Origin: Leptospirales bacterium
GTDB taxonomy: Bacteria > Spirochaetota > Leptospiria > Leptospirales > Leptonemataceae
DNA length: 64,000 nt
Assembly (NCBI GenBank): GCA_019694655.1
Contig: JAIBBN010000001.1
Location: 564,501-628,500, forward strand
Reading direction: 5' to 3'
The position numbers and the translations under genes are program-made. The notes under the pieces were generated by a model. That model saw nothing but the letters and a program-made list of their open reading frames with translations, made no database searches and was not told the origin of the DNA. How positions within the stretch are numbered: the first letter of the stretch is position 1; each line of letters opens with the position of its first letter. Shown one piece after another: positions 50,965 through 58,930 of this stretch.

Positions 50965-52851
50965 TCAGTTGCGTCCCAGCAGTTCCATGGCTTTTGCTTT
51001 GATCTCGCCAACCAGAAAAGGCCGGCCCTTGACCTTGTGCAAACCAACAACCTCGCGCAAAAAGCGGGCGCGGATCAGCCAGGACAATTGACCGAGATTC
51101 AATTCGGGGATCAGAATTGTATCAAAGCGTTTGAGGATCTCGCCCAGATTGCGCGGGAAGGGATTCAAGTAGCGCAGATGGGCGTGGGAGACGCTGACGC
51201 CCTCGCGCTTCAGTTCCTCGACCGCGGCGCGGATTGCGCCATGGGTTCCGCCCCAGCCCAGAATCAAAAGCTGGCCCGATTCTTCGCCGTAGACGCTTTG
51301 CTCGGGGATGAAATTGGCAATGTTTTCGATCTTCTGCTGGCGAGTGAGCGCCATGCGTTCGTGGTTATCGGGATCGTAGCTGACCGCGCCGCTGAGCGCA
51401 TCCTTTTCCAGGCCGCCGACGCGATGCTCGAAGCCGGGGATGCCGGGTATCGCCCAGCGTCGCGCCAGGGTTTTTTCATCGCGGGCATAGGTATGAAAGG
51501 CGGCCGGATCTTCGCCGGCCTGGATCTGGTTGTGGCGAATGACTGGCAGCGAGTCGGCGCTGGGAACGCGCCAGGGCTCGGAGCCAAAGATCAAGAAGAG
51601 CTCGGAGAGATACATGACCGGCGTCATGAACTCAACGGCCAGACGCACGGCCTCAATGCTGCAATCGAAACTGTCCGCCGGCGTGGCCGATGCCAGAATT
51701 GGAATCGGACTTTCGCCGTTGCGTCCAAAGAAGGACTGCAATAGATCGCCCTGTTCGGTCTTGGTTGGCAGACCGGTGGAGGGACCGGCGCGCTGGGCGT
51801 TGATCACCACCAGCGGCAACTCGGTGATCATCGCCAGGTTCATCGCTTCCAGCTTGAGATTGATGCCCGGGCCGGCGGAAGCCGTTACGCCCAGCGAACC
51901 GCCGTAGCTGGCGCCAATTGCTGCGCCAGCGGCGGCAATCTCGTCCTCGGCCTGAAAGGTCTTCACGCCAAAGTTTTTGTGTTTGGAAAGCTCGTGCAAA
52001 ATGTCCGAGGCCGGCGTGATTGGATAGCCGGCGTAGAGCAGTTCCAGACCGGCGCGATCGGCCCCGGCAATCAGGCCAAGGGCGATGGCCGTGGCGCCGT
52101 TGATGTTGCGGTAGAGGCCGGGCTCAAAATGGGCGTCGCGCACCTCGTAGCGGGAGGTGAACAGTTCGCTGGCTTCGGCAAAATTGTAGCCGGCGCGCAG
52201 CGCGCGAAGGTTCGCCTCTACAAACGTTTCGTTTTTCTTAAATTTGTCTTTGATCCAGTGCGTGGTCGTTTCCGGATCGCGCTGGTAGAGCCAGTAGGCC
52301 ACGCCCAGGGCAAAGAAGTTCTTACAGCGATCCATGTGGTTTTGCTGCAGCTCCAGGCCTTCCAGCGCAGTGCGCGTCAGCTTCGTGATGGGCGCGCGAA
52401 TCAGCTGGTACTTCTCGGCCACCGCCGGATCCTCCAGCGGATTGGAGCTGTAGCCGACGCGGCTCAGATTGCGCTCATCAAAGGCGTCGGTGTTGACCAG
52501 CAAAACGCCGCCCGGACGCAAGTCCTTGAGGTTGACCTTCAGCGCCGCCGGGTTCATCGCCACCAGCACATCAATCAGGTCGCCCGGGGTGTGGATGTCG
52601 CGGCTGGAAAAGTGGATCTGAAAGCCGGAGACCCCGCCCAGGGTGCCCACCGGCGCGCGGATCTCCGCCGGGAAATCGGGAAAGGTCATCAGGTCGTTGC
52701 CGGCTACGCCGGTGGTGGTGGTGAACTGAGCGCCGGTGATTTGCATGCCGTCGCCGGAGTCCCCGGCAAAACGGACTATGGCGCTTTCAATGGTCTCGTG
52801 CTTGACCTGGCGTTCGTTCTGGCTGTGCACCGGGCTGGCGCCTGAACTCAT
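50965..52851 (-). CDS. korA: 2-oxoacid:ferredoxin oxidoreductase, fused gamma-alpha subunit (KorA-like)
   Basis: A 628-residue partner of KorB. The N-terminal 190 residues are the gamma-type domain (VRFAGDSGDGMQITGAQFTTTTG), and the rest is the alpha pyrimidine-binding domain (LLYAGYPITPASDILHELSKH; GASYGGSLGVTASAGPGINLK). The C-terminal transketolase-like part contains LLILGWGGTHGAIRAAVEEL. This two-subunit form (alpha-gamma fusion plus beta) is known from many bacteria. The ATG at 52851 has AGAGG nearby upstream on this strand. Confidence 0.92.
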   Translation of the reverse strand: MSSGASPVHSQNERQVKHETIESAIVRFAGDSGDGMQITGAQFTTTTGVAGNDLMTFPDFPAEIRAPVGTLGGVSGFQIHFSSRDIHTPGDLIDVLVAMNPAALKVNLKDLRPGGVLLVNTDAFDERNLSRVGYSSNPLEDPAVAEKYQLIRAPITKLTRTALEGLELQQNHMDRCKNFFALGVAYWLYQRDPETTTHWIKDKFKKNETFVEANLRALRAGYNFAEASELFTSRYEVRDAHFEPGLYRNINGATAIALGLIAGADRAGLELLYAGYPITPASDILHELSKHKNFGVKTFQAEDEIAAAGAAIGASYGGSLGVTASAGPGINLKLEAMNLAMITELPLVVINAQRAGPSTGLPTKTEQGDLLQSFFGRNGESPIPILASATPADSFDCSIEAVRLAVEFMTPVMYLSELFLIFGSEPWRVPSADSLPVIRHNQIQAGEDPAAFHTYARDEKTLARRWAIPGIPGFEHRVGGLEKDALSGAVSYDPDNHERMALTRQQKIENIANFIPEQSVYGEESGQLLILGWGGTHGAIRAAVEELKREGVSVSHAHLRYLNPFPRNLGEILKRFDTILIPELNLGQLSWLIRARFLREVVGLHKVKGRPFLVGEIKAKAMELLGRN

Positions 52852-53619
52852 GGATTCCTCTCTATAATAGGGCGAGCAGCAGGGCCCGCAGGCCTATCTG
52901 CCCGAGTTTTTGCAGCGATTGGCAGGGGCAACCGAATTCCCCGCCCCAGAAAAGGCGCCGGCTGGCGGGCGGGCGAGGGCGGATGGCGCTTCAGAGTCCC
53001 CTGGCAAGCGACACAGGCGTCCCTGCCCGAGTCGCTTGCACACGCGACCTCCATGGTCGCGTGCGAGCAGGGGACTCTTCCGCGCTGAGCTTCGGCCAGA
53101 CTATCGTTCTGGCCTTTCTCCCGGAAGCGAGCCAGGGTCTCGCTTCCGGCGGCGCGTTGCGCCGCTCATTCTACGGGCGTCCGCCGCTCGATGGTCGTTA
53201 TATCCAGCACTTCCTGGCCTCGCTTAGCGCTCGGCCAGCGGCGCCGGGCTGCTGCGCACTTCGCTGTCGCTTCGGCCCCGCACGCAGAACACTCTGAAAT
53301 TACTTTGTGCCACCCCAGAATCGCCTCCGCGCCCGGTCAGTCCTGCGTGCGGGTCTTGCTGCGCTCGCGCTTGCAATGCTGCGCATCCCTGCCGCGGAAG
53401 CGCGGCTATCATTTTGGAATTCTGCAGGCTGAAGTGTAAAATAATCACCATTGGGCTACCTGTGCACAAGGGCGAGACGCGGCTTCACCGTCTCGCGCCC
53501 GCTCTAGTTGACCCCGCCAGACACTCTGGCCGCAGCGTGCGCATCTGTGAGCGCTTTTCCCTGGAGCCGTCGTGGACTCTGCATTGCCTACTTTTCAGTA
53601 GCCTGCTACGCAGCGGAGA
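52852..53619 (+). other. Non-coding, hairpin-dense stretch (no gene seen)
   Basis: A stretch of 768 bases with no credible protein. It is filled with perfect inverted repeats: the branched element at 52993-53078; GGCCAGA/TCTGGCC at 53094-53114 (seven-base loop); an 11-bp stem at 53121-53149 (seven-base loop); GCGGCGC/GCGCCGC at 53149-53165; an 8-bp stem at 53472-53496; and GCCAGA/TCTGGC at 53516-53530. GC content falls sharply near 53640 where the orphan gene begins. It could be a repeat cluster or a structured RNA. It carries no recognised promoter of its own beyond TATAAT at 52863-52868. Confidence 0.6.
52993..53078 (+). repeat. Nested inverted repeats forming a three-way junction
   Basis: The outer stem pairs AGAGTCCCCTG (52993-53003) with CAGGGGACTCT (53068-53078), 11 of 11. 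Inside it are two perfect 9-bp stems: GCAAGCGAC (53004-53012) with GTCGCTTGC (53031-53039), and CACGCGACC (53041-53049) with GGTCGCGTG (53055-53063). Only five bases are unpaired at the junction. Both strands would fold the same way. Its role is unknown. Confidence 0.8.
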
Positions 53620-54032: not shown

Positions 54033-54057
54033 TCTGGTCCGGCCCCTTGAAACTGGA
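54033..54057 (+). repeat. Left terminal inverted repeat of the IS3-family element
   Basis: 25 bases, outer part TCTGGTCCGGCCCC. It is the reverse complement of the right end except at one position (T versus C at the fifteenth base). Confidence 0.9.
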
Positions 54058-54069
54058 AAGCGAATTTAA

Positions 54070-54942
54070 TTAAGTTCTACAGAGTTTTTCGAATTCGACA
54101 GGGGTCATTCCGTTCAGGCTTGAGTGTGGGCGGTAATGGTTGTAGCGGCGGATGAAGAGGAAGACGGCGCGATCAGCTTCCGCCGGGCTGGCGTAATCGG
54201 AAAGATTAATCTCCTCATATTTTACGGTCTTGTTAAAGGACTCAGCGCTTGCATTCTCGTAGACGCTTCTCTCGATCATTGAACAGCGCATCCCGAAGCG
54301 TTTCAGCGTCGCCTGATACCTCGCGAAGCGATACACCGAATCGCGGTCGGTGTGGTGAATGCAGCCGCGGAGACTCCGGCGACGGCGCCTGGCATCAATG
54401 AGGGCCCGCAGTACAAGTTCCGTGTCAATTCGATCCGATGCAGCGCGACCGACGATCCGCCGCGAGCAATGGTCCTTCAAAGTGGCGAGATGGCGCTTCT
54501 GTCCATCGACCAGATAGGAAGTGATGTCGCCGACCAGCGCCTGGCCGGGATTCTTGATCTTTGCGGAGCGGAGCAGGTTTGGATGGCGCCGGCCGCCGCC
54601 GCTCTTCTTTTTCCCATCAGACTTCCGCTTTTTCCGGGGAATCAGAGCATTTTCGCTCATGATCCGATAGACCCGCTTCTTGTTTACGCGGATCTTACGG
54701 CGAAGAATCCGCGTAAAGGAACGATAGCCGGAGGCGGGAAGTCGCAACAGGATTTGTTCGATTCGGCGCAGCAAAGCAGCATCCGAAATCGCCTGTTTCG
54801 CCGGGCGGCTTTGATAGTAAAAGGTGGATACGCTCAGCCCGAGCGCTTTGCAGCTTTTTTCGATCCCGAACTCAGCGGCGAGATGGCGCCGGACCAGCTC
54901 CCGTTTCGCTGCAATTCTCTGGAAAGTTCTTCCGTTTTTTTT
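54070..54942 (-). CDS. IS3-family transposase, OrfB part (made by -1 frameshift)
   Basis: The catalytic half. In the frame set by a -1 slip on the A8 run (minus strand, 54935-54942), translation continues through RTFQRIAAKRELVRRH and AEFGIEKSCKALGLSVSTFY into the HTH_21 and rve core. The DDE triad is Asp in VGDITSYLVDG, Asp in HHTDRDSVYRF and Glu in NASAESFNKTVKYEE. The end (YNHYRPHSSLNGMTPVEFEKL) is typical of IS3 OrfB. A separate ATG-like start exists further in, near 54774, but the N-terminal part is conserved only through the frameshift product. Confidence 0.9.
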   Translation of the reverse strand, partial: KKNGRTFQRIAAKRELVRRHLAAEFGIEKSCKALGLSVSTFYYQSRPAKQAISDAALLRRIEQILLRLPASGYRSFTRILRRKIRVNKKRVYRIMSENALIPRKKRKSDGKKKSGGGRRHPNLLRSAKIKNPGQALVGDITSYLVDGQKRHLATLKDHCSRRIVGRAASDRIDTELVLRALIDARRRRRSLRGCIHHTDRDSVYRFARYQATLKRFGMRCSMIERSVYENASAESFNKTVKYEEINLSDYASPAEADRAVFLFIRRYNHYRPHSSLNGMTPVEFEKLCRT

Positions 54943-55190
54943 AGAATATGATTCTCCAGGGCGATGTCCGCCAACGCCCCTTCCAGCTCCTTGATGCGCT
55001 TGCGCAACTCGATCTCGGTTCTATGCTCCGAGCGGAAAGTCCCGGTATTAAGTTCATCGCGCCAATTCGAAATCGTAGCGGCGGCGATGCCCTCCCTTCG
55101 GGCTATCCAAGTCATCGGGCTCAATCCCGATACAACCTCCAAGACGATCCTCTTCTTGAATTCGCGTGAAAAATTCCGCCTTTTGATCAC
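54834..55190 (-). CDS. IS3-family transposase, OrfA (DNA-binding) part
   Basis: A 118-residue protein with an N-terminal helix-turn-helix (FKKRIVLEVVSGLSPMTWIA; GIAAATISNWRDEL) and a leucine-zipper segment (EIELRKRIKELEGALADIALEN). The slippery run CTAAAAAAAACGG is read CTA AAA AAA ACG here; after it, the 0-frame tail is only a short Ser/Gly/Lys stretch ending at a stop, as expected for the OrfA product when no frameshift occurs. Confidence 0.9.
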   Translation of the reverse strand: MIKRRNFSREFKKRIVLEVVSGLSPMTWIARREGIAAATISNWRDELNTGTFRSEHRTEIELRKRIKELEGALADIALENHILKKTEELSRELQRNGSWSGAISPLSSGSKKAAKRSG

Positions 55191-55223
55191 AGGTCAATCT
55201 CCTTGCTCCCTTTTTGGCTGTCC

Positions 55224-55248
55224 TCCAGTTTCAGGGGGCCGGACCAGA
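55224..55248 (-). repeat. Right terminal inverted repeat of the IS3-family element
   Basis: 25 bases ending GGACCAGA at the outer edge; 24 of 25 match the left end. It ends 34 bases upstream of the orfA start. Confidence 0.9.
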
Positions 55249-57428: not shown

Positions 57429-57450
57429 ACCGTACGCAAATGCGTACGGT
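57429..57450. repeat. Perfect hairpin
   Basis: ACCGTACGC (57429-57437) pairs with GCGTACGGT (57442-57450), nine of nine, with an AAAT loop. No T-run follows on either strand beyond ATTT, so a terminator role is uncertain. It lies inside the fragment upstream of the second transposase. Confidence 0.6.
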
Positions 57451-57509: not shown

Positions 57510-58541
57510 CTATCCGCCGATCTGGCCTTCGCCGGCGTTCAACTCCGGCAATGCGACGGTCACTGCGGAGTTCTCACCGGACTTACAGGCCTTGCAGTTG
57601 AATTTCGAGTTCTCTTCGATGCGCAGAGCGCGCGCTGCTACAATTCTGGCAGCGAAGCGGTGGCGATCGGGAATTTCGCCGTGAAATGCCGGCAGAGGTC
57701 GCGTGCCGTGAAGGGACCCGTGGCAACGGTTATTGTAGTCCTTAACCGCTTCATCTACGGCTTCCTGGAATCCAGCCAGGGTTGTGAATACGCGCTCCTG
57801 AATGTACTGACCTTTCAGAATTCGATTTATGGCTTCGGCCATCGAGTTCGAGAAGGTGATGTCCTTCTGGGCCGCCAGCCGACGAACACGATCGGGAGCG
57901 CTGTCGGCCAGTTCAGCAAGTTCTCCTTTGTTCTCGGAGCCGTCGTCGACGATGAGATCAAAGGACGAGGGAAGAATATCGGTGTGGCGGTCAAGAACGC
58001 CTTCGAAGATCGAGCGCCACAGCGTGGCGGATGCCGGGAAGGTGGCTACGGCAGCCAGAATGCATCTGGAGAAGTTGTCCATCAGGACATGCACATGTAC
58101 CATGCGGTGATCGCTCAAGAACATGCGCGTGACATCGGTATGCAGGATTTCTCCGGACCTGCCTGCGCGAATTCCGATTGGATGCTTGCGACGGAAGCTC
58201 CTGAATACCCGGGAAAGACCGAGTGCGCGACAGAGTTGGTAGATCGAGGATTTGCAGGCTTCGATGCGGCGCTGCCCGGGGCGAATCTGCTGCGAACAGA
58301 TGCCGAGCGACCGGAGGTACAGGGCTCGCACACTGCCGGAGAGCCGCTGCGCCCTGCTTACAATCCTGGCCCTGGCCAGTCGCTGTTTGGCGCCCTTAAA
58401 CGAATAGAGCGCCTGCCTGAGCACGCGATTGGCTGCCAGCAATGCGCGATTGTTGCACGAAGCAATGACGGTTTCAGTTGCCGTGGCGGGAAAATATGCG
58501 AAAGCGAGAGCAGTCTCTCCGGGGAAACGTGAAACTTTCAC
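57510..58541 (-). CDS. Transposase with rve integrase core
   Basis: A 343-residue single-frame transposase. The N-terminal 110 residues are basic and probably bind DNA. The DDE core is Asp in ILHTDVTRMFLSDH, Asp in LIVDDGSENKGELAEL and Glu in ITFSNSMAEAINRILKGQY, followed by VDEAVKDYNNRCHGSLHGTRP, the typical rve end. The spacing fits the IS3/IS481 superfamily. No upstream orfA was found, and no clear terminal inverted repeats could be paired around it, so the element may be degraded at its ends. The start is a GTG with a poor Shine-Dalgarno. Confidence 0.82.
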   Translation of the reverse strand: MKVSRFPGETALAFAYFPATATETVIASCNNRALLAANRVLRQALYSFKGAKQRLARARIVSRAQRLSGSVRALYLRSLGICSQQIRPGQRRIEACKSSIYQLCRALGLSRVFRSFRRKHPIGIRAGRSGEILHTDVTRMFLSDHRMVHVHVLMDNFSRCILAAVATFPASATLWRSIFEGVLDRHTDILPSSFDLIVDDGSENKGELAELADSAPDRVRRLAAQKDITFSNSMAEAINRILKGQYIQERVFTTLAGFQEAVDEAVKDYNNRCHGSLHGTRPLPAFHGEIPDRHRFAARIVAARALRIEENSKFNCKACKSGENSAVTVALPELNAGEGQIGG

Positions 58542-58930
58542 GAACGCTACACAGAGGGCAGCTTCCGCGAGTTATTCCGCATCTGACAGAAGAGTAAACT
58601 TCAATTTTCTCTTGCACAACTGAAGCAATACTCTTGAATGTTTAAGAATTCATGCGCACAAAAAAACTGCGCATGCTCTTTAATCGGACCTGCAGGCCGG
58701 CCGGATTGCCGGCAGCGGAGAGTAGAGTAAAAGGACGGAGTAGATTCGCGTGCGGGACAGGCATGGCCTCCGACCGCGGCGAAGCATCCGGGAGGACAGG
58801 CAATTCCGCAGATCGTCTGCGGAATTCAAGATGACGACCGCGCCCCCGCGCGAGGGACGCGCCCGGAAAAGCGCCGGACCGATTTACCGGCAGGCCGCGC
58901 CGGTCAGGGCGCCCGCCCGCCGCCCCTGGC
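58542..58930. other. Spacer with several perfect hairpins, no gene
   Basis: A stretch of 389 bases with no credible protein. Inverted repeats: CATGCGCA/TGCGCATG at 58651-58675 (nine-base A-rich loop), GCCGGC/GCCGGC at 58696-58713, AATTCCGCAGA/TCTGCGGAATT at 58802-58826 (three-base loop, 11 of 11), and CCCTGGC/GCCAGGG at 58924-58941, which encloses the stop codon of the reductase gene. The last may terminate that gene without a U-run. Style and density resemble the hairpins at 53 kb. Confidence 0.55.

Follow-up and report, generated by a model that had tools for sequence, protein, structure and literature searches.

Among the closest described counterparts of the element reported here are the CsrB/CsrC and RsmX/Y/Z sponges of Gammaproteobacteria, in which one RNA combines several hairpins whose stems vary while A(N)GGA is conserved in their apical loops. 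These sponges bind dimers of CsrA or RsmE, as would be expected of the present element by analogy. The high-affinity RsmE site is described as an ANGGAX hexaloop placed directly on a stem, with weaker binding where the N is omitted (PMC4005645). According to a review, a CsrA dimer bridges 10-63 nt, best above 18, and fliW is absent from Gammaproteobacteria (PMC7652899). GGA hexaloop hairpins are also reported from flagellin leaders under FliW-linked control, namely those of B. subtilis hag, C. jejuni flaA and L. biflexa flaB3 (PMC7652899, PMC8668096, PMC4894983). Leptospira is reported to carry csrA beside fliW, and L. biflexa CsrA to bind a GGA hexaloop (PMC8668096); a single CsrA-like ncRNA has been predicted computationally in L. 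biflexa (PMC4863578).

The element differs from the CsrB/RsmZ sponges in having only two hairpins, carried on a closed three-way junction, in occurring at up to 10 dispersed loci per genome, in lacking an Rfam match, and in belonging to a genome with fliW beside csrA. With the CsrA-bound flagellin transcripts it shares GGA hexaloop hairpins, in its own case in putative mRNA leaders. Unlike these, it is a conserved branched unit that lies mostly away from flagellin genes and, where it precedes a gene, 34-141 nt from the start codon rather than over the ribosome site. REP/BIME and ERIC repeats are likewise dispersed, palindromic, GC-rich and often found just behind genes. The element departs from them in its conserved loops and structure without conserved stem sequence, its asymmetric wobble pairs and its 85-nt junction. 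Lastly, one related genome carries it inside an IS5-type MITE, with terminal inverted repeats and 4-bp duplications of the YTAR form typical of IS5; this carrier is confined to one genome, and the copy described below lies outside it.

The window, that is, the whole 64,000-nucleotide stretch that was analysed, comes from the Leptospirales genome GCA_019694655.1 (here G000, window G000:C1:564501-628500). A preliminary description had singled out six perfect stems of 7-11 bp, three of them nested as a three-way junction with five unpaired bases. A listing of stems returned all six, and the junction is exact, its unpaired bases being 53040 and 53064-53067. The features are as follows.

52993-53003 with 53068-53078: perfect stem of 11 bp, outermost of the three nested junction stems
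53004-53012 with 53031-53039: perfect stem of 9 bp, junction arm
53041-53049 with 53055-53063: perfect stem of 9 bp, junction arm
53094-53100 with 53108-53114: perfect stem of 7 bp, beyond the junction
53121-53131 with 53139-53149: perfect stem of 11 bp, beyond the junction
53149-53155 with 53159-53165: perfect stem of 7 bp, sharing base 53149 with the preceding 11-bp stem
52993-53078, minus strand: three-way-junction RNA element, with P1, P3 and P2 in 5'-3' order
53048-53055, minus strand: P3 apical loop with closing bases, CATGGAGG, candidate CsrA site 1
53018-53025, minus strand: P2 apical loop with closing bases, CAGGGACG, candidate CsrA site 2
53094-53165, no strand assigned: three extra hairpins within the repeat, with stems of 7, 11 and 7 bp, which precede the junction when the minus strand is read 5'-3'
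52985-53427, no strand assigned: repeat enclosing the junction, six copies in G000
50965-52851, minus strand: 2-oxoacid:ferredoxin oxidoreductase gene (Pfam POR and POR_N)

The early judgement that such an arrangement is unlikely to arise by chance is borne out on both strands. For 52980-53180, the fold energy has a z of -6.8 on the plus strand and -7.5 on the minus strand, and the 102-nt junction on the minus strand reaches -8.16; none of 200 shuffles was as stable in any of the three cases. An Rfam search of the window at gathering scores gave no family matching the element and no Csr/Rsm match. A search of nine junction loci, with E up to 5, likewise gave no Csr/Rsm match and no family above threshold; HTT-AS1_3, which overlapped one copy (L038) at E 3, was set aside as a chance match far under its gathering score. 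Elsewhere in the window, a 6S RNA lies at 1638-1817 on the minus strand (RF00013, 75.1 bits).

The region is not unique, as a DNA search of the window's genome returned seven matches that make up six repeat copies: the window copy, three on contig C19, and one each on C9 and C25. The C9 copy lacks the left part, and one of the six is common only over the first ~180 bases. The three extra hairpins are nearly invariant among these copies and so provide no covariation evidence of their own. A seventh, diverged junction, on C3, was found by covariance model downstream of a tRNA-Ser gene. At the DNA level, the repeat is absent from 60 relatives, save for a weak 43-base match in G023, and no copy was found among plasmid records.

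The junction itself is distributed far more widely than the repeat. In a hand-made alignment of five junctions from G000 and one relative (G005), 22 of 36 pairs are changed on both sides and 93.2% of cells are paired, a value equalled by none of 500 shuffles. A covariance model built from these five on the plus strand (R2) detected the junction, at E up to 0.05, in 11 of the family's 22 genomes, nine of which had contributed no sequence to the model. The model-fitted alignment of 32 sequences (A11; A13 was fitted in the same way) has 86.7% of cells paired, against 54.3% when shuffled. After removal of nine rows that were badly aligned, truncated or near-duplicate, the remaining 23 (A12) have 95.8% paired, against 60.4% shuffled and 34-42% with partners slid, pair counts that tilt towards structure because A12, like A9, was padded by hand. 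As the preliminary description had suggested might be checked, compensatory changes keep otherwise unrelated stem sequences paired: the stems are mostly wholly different among copies of one genome, while the loops are kept.

A further model (R3), built from the 23 sequences on the opposite, minus-type strand, was run on 40 genomes and, with E up to 0.01, matched 67 times in 16 of them; the E-values of models R1-R3 are rough owing to short calibration. These comprise 15 of 22 genomes in the window's own family, one of eight in family f2 (G024, with four copies) and none of 10 in the rest of the class. The family genomes without a match are the four of genus g3 together with G007, G009 and G010. 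Up to 10 copies occur per genome, all such counts being lower bounds. In an R3 search of 224,750 bases, the window element scores 66.8 bits (E 5.4e-12). The 63 matches of that search, less three with a sequence already represented, provide the 60 distinct copies used below, which are counted as sequences and not as independent events.

Specificity was also gauged with a folded-strand pattern, strict enough to miss many known copies and thus no guide to abundance, in 84,980 species genomes, a collection that may leave out the window's own genome. It returned 20 stretches, 14 of them in records titled as Spirochaetia, Spirochaetales or Leptospirales MAGs and four in 'bacterium isolate bin.39'. 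The last two, in a Gemmatimonadetes MAG and in Blastococcus mobilis, have no R2 match at E up to 1. The same pattern gave no stretch in viral contigs, and no description of such an RNA was found in the titles and abstract openings of the open-licence PMC literature. The window hairpins are thus part of a three-armed RNA family, not listed until now, that is scattered through the genomes of some relatives of Leptospira, and the covariance model offers a means of finding further members.

The same kinship does not extend to the four isolated hairpins that the preliminary description had grouped with the junction. Those at 57429, 57488, 58651 and 58802 do exist, their perfect stems measuring 9, 9, 8 and 11 bp, respectively; R3, however, finds only one place in the 64-kb window at E up to 0.001. 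The first two lie within or next to an IS-like integrase element, to which sequences on C19 and C25 are related and whose ORF at 57510-58541 scores 23.5 bits for rve_3, under the cut-off of 26.5. The other two lie inside 58560-58861, which is related to C25:21564-21864; the two segments share 90% identity on opposite strands, and the latter adjoins the C25 junction copy. A separate IS3-like element occupies 54033-55248, with ORFs 54070-54774 and 54834-55190 on the minus strand and inverted ends of 25 bp that are 96% complementary.

The wobble pairs reveal which strand folds. On the plus strand, P1 and P2 contain 28 A.C mismatches against seven G.T pairs, an excess seen even though R2, with which the copies were collected and aligned, favours G.T on that strand. 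The outward extension of P1, which lies outside all models, shows the same bias (21 A.C against five G.T, plus strand). Plus-strand A.C mismatches in otherwise perfect helices are minus-strand G.U wobbles, so it is the minus strand that folds. With a symmetric score over the 60 distinct copies, the minus-type strand has 109 G.U and 36 A.C. G.U outnumbers A.C in 38 copies and the reverse holds in seven (sign test 1.6e-6, which ignores relatedness and applies to copies collected with R3, a model that favours the minus-type direction). A plus-strand RNA was dropped as a reading on these counts. The structure, its conservation and the identity of the folded strand are well supported, and of the options first raised for the hairpins, a structured RNA is the one backed both by covariation across genera and by the wobble-pair bias that selects the minus strand.

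Conservation is concentrated in the two apical loops. In the P2 loop, read on the folded strand, all 23 aligned sequences share the C, A, G, G, A and G of CANGGANG, and P3 presents CA(N)GGANG in most of them. Among the 60 distinct copies, 52 have CANGGANG in P2, a C-ANGGAN-G hexaloop closed by C-G, and 55 have A(N)GGA in P3. Both loops carry A(N)GGA in 53, with seven exceptions. R3 was trained on GGA loops and its matches tilt towards them; among the 37 copies outside the training set, both loops carry the motif in 31. P3 often lacks the N of ANGGA, which by the RsmE definition (PMC4005645) would make it a weaker site and counts against the CsrA reading. The distance from GGA to GGA is 24-33 nt (median 27, 51 copies measured), within the 10-63 nt range described for a CsrA dimer. 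Many copies also have a purine internal loop in P3, with GGA facing GAA.

These features suggest a new family of CsrA-binding RNA elements, ~85 nt long and read from the minus strand, which would act as mRNA leaders, as sponges, or as both. On the sequence evidence, we consider this the probable explanation. P1 closes the element, and the hairpins P3 and P2 branch from it at a compact three-way junction. Both apical loops present A(N)GGA, P2 in the form of a C-G-closed ANGGAN hexaloop, and one CsrA dimer would most likely bind both loops of a single RNA. Where a copy lies just 5' of a gene, CsrA might control that mRNA; where it has no co-directional neighbour, the copy might instead yield a small RNA that titrates CsrA. 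CsrA is the favoured partner because it accounts for both the invariant loop positions and their spacing. An array of protein-binding sites, another of the original suggestions, comes near to this in spirit, with CsrA the likely partner at two loops of one RNA.

In G000, csrA lies beside fliW (the CsrA protein was checked by Pfam), and csrA is present in 19 of the 22 family genomes (G000 and 18 of the 21 others); the three genomes lacking it reach no more than 81% completeness. Since csrA occurs nearly everywhere, including genomes with no detected element, its presence does not separate genomes with and without the element and was rejected as a discriminating test. A broader proposal would have these spirochaetes maintain a dispersed network of RNAs that bind CsrA, alongside FliW, as the first lineage in which titration by RNA and FliW both act on one CsrA, with mobile DNA (the MITE in one genome, the toxin-cassette repeats in another) spreading the double sites; this extension is rather doubtful. 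The family does supply defined RNAs in fliW-csrA genomes that can be put to direct test.

Gene contexts bear on the proposed roles. They were taken from an ORF finder and not a gene caller, with Pfam checks on part of the neighbours. On the folded strand, the genes flanking the 60 copies are convergent in 19, co-directional in 11, both antisense in nine and divergent in eight; one flank is missing in 13. Such mixed orientations mean that some copies can be leaders, while others, if transcribed, must be separate small RNAs. The leader-like placements, with neighbours assigned by Pfam and distances from element to gene, are listed here.

obg: 38 nt in G003 and 35 nt in G015
ftsA: 39 nt
FKBP gene: 78 nt
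FlgE/F/G gene: 70 nt
actin/MreB-like gene: 73 nt
spore-photoproduct-lyase-like gene: 34 nt
ferredoxin oxidoreductase subunit in G004: 43 nt
the window's oxidoreductase gene: 141 nt (on the minus strand, from the 3' side of the element to the start of the gene)

The oxidoreductase gene may or may not be on one transcript with the window copy, which may be either a leader or a sponge. A leader role does not explain the 23 of 60 copies, classed by hand, that follow at 6-55 nt the stop codon of a gene read in the opposite direction, nor the nine with both neighbours antisense. Indeed, the frequency of placement behind oppositely read stop codons is left unexplained by CsrA binding in general.

That placement speaks for a 3' UTR structure on the opposite strand, either a terminator or an mRNA stabiliser, behind stop codons and tRNA or tmRNA genes. 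REP/BIME elements are said to act in just these ways. Copies stand behind tmRNA genes (L079, L082) and tRNA genes (L081, L033), and behind groEL in L099, where the stem ends in a T-rich stretch. However, mismatches on the opposite strand are A.C and not G.T, and the 23 behind-stop copies themselves favour the folded strand by 56 to 9. T-runs of at least five within 60 nt hardly differ between strands (7/56 copies on the opposite strand, 5/56 on the folded strand), and across these 56 copies no promoter-like or T-run signal distinguishes the strands or marks the folded one. A terminator would also give the conserved loops no role, and we regard this explanation as unlikely.

Comparably unlikely is an RNA with a different function, be it riboswitch, ribozyme or target of some other RNA-binding protein, in which the GGA loops would coincidentally serve the tertiary contacts of the RNA itself. 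The purine internal loop of P3 would be needless in a plain CsrA site, and the presence of the same motif in both apical loops would also suit possible loop-receptor pairs. Against this, three copies (L091, L099, L165) have a plain P3 hairpin without the internal loop and yet keep ANGGA, the neighbouring genes share no ligand or pathway, and no Rfam family matches.

Association with mobile DNA is evident in two genomes. Besides the window's, there are five repeat copies in G000, all on contigs with polymorphic-toxin cassettes; in this genome the carrier of the junction is the repeat at these cassettes. The five pretoxin-HINT domains of G000 are found on C19 (three), C9 and C5. On C19 the repeat copies adjoin HINT toxin frames or stand before them, and on C25 the copy is followed by a gene that encodes a GH-E nuclease domain. 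The toxin genes at the C19 and C25 copies are encoded on the minus strand, the one that folds, so this strand continues into the toxin frame. G005 has the junction inside a MITE. Of eight MITE copies examined, six measure 245-259 bp, have terminal inverted repeats and are flanked by matching 4-bp duplications (CTAA, TTAA or TTAG); of the other two, one lacks its right end and one has unequal flanks. A DNA search with this MITE gave 30 pieces in G005 and none in G000. By eye, terminal inverted repeats and target-site duplication are absent from the window copy in alignments of the six repeat copies. The MITE provides a case of transposable DNA carrying candidate binding sites of a global regulator.

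The mobile palindromic repeat first proposed fits in part, since there is a six-copy repeat in G000 and MITE carriage in a relative, but most copies elsewhere have stems of their own and do not resemble recent insertions, and the lack of a fixed stem sequence speaks against a REP element. A folded single strand recognised by a recombinase or transposase, attC-like or REP-like and also spreading toxin cassettes, would account for the repeat copies at cassette edges, the MITE that carries the junction in G005, flanked by 4-bp duplications at six of its eight examined copies, and the placement at tRNA and tmRNA 3' ends, and G.T pairs are tolerated in folded DNA as well; nevertheless, we think it improbable, because no stem sequence is common to the copies of one genome, which are thus not the products of recent copying, because MITE movement is explained by the MITE ends and not the junction, because no integrase exceeds the integron cut-off, and because two genomes from a single genus both retain a copy in front of obg. 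An integron, a reading prompted by the palindromes at toxin-cassette edges, was rejected on the integrase result (seven TIGR02249 matches in G000, none over cut-off).

Several further arrangements were seen around the copies. Polymorphic-toxin module arrays occupy G000:C19:40000-50930, G000:C9:1-12000 and G000:C25:15000-26172 (L008-L010), with pretoxin HINT and GH-E nuclease modules, small genes in between, and the junction repeat at module edges. In four copies (three on C19, one on C25), DG or NG codons mark the point where the left edge of the repeat meets the toxin frame. In four genomes the junction immediately follows the tmRNA gene (L077, L079, L082, L103), the gene having been identified by ARAGORN in L079 and L082 and the same 3' end by eye in L077 and L103; in L082, the tmRNA gene end is present twice. 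In L081 (300-460), L103 and L076, the palindrome around the junction reaches imperfectly into the 3' end of the neighbouring gene (tRNA-Asp, tmRNA or a protein gene), with a far arm that, by eye, resembles an inverted gene end. Finally, one locus (L158, G015:C108:9800-13800) has four junction copies within 940 bases, one of them reversed relative to the other three.
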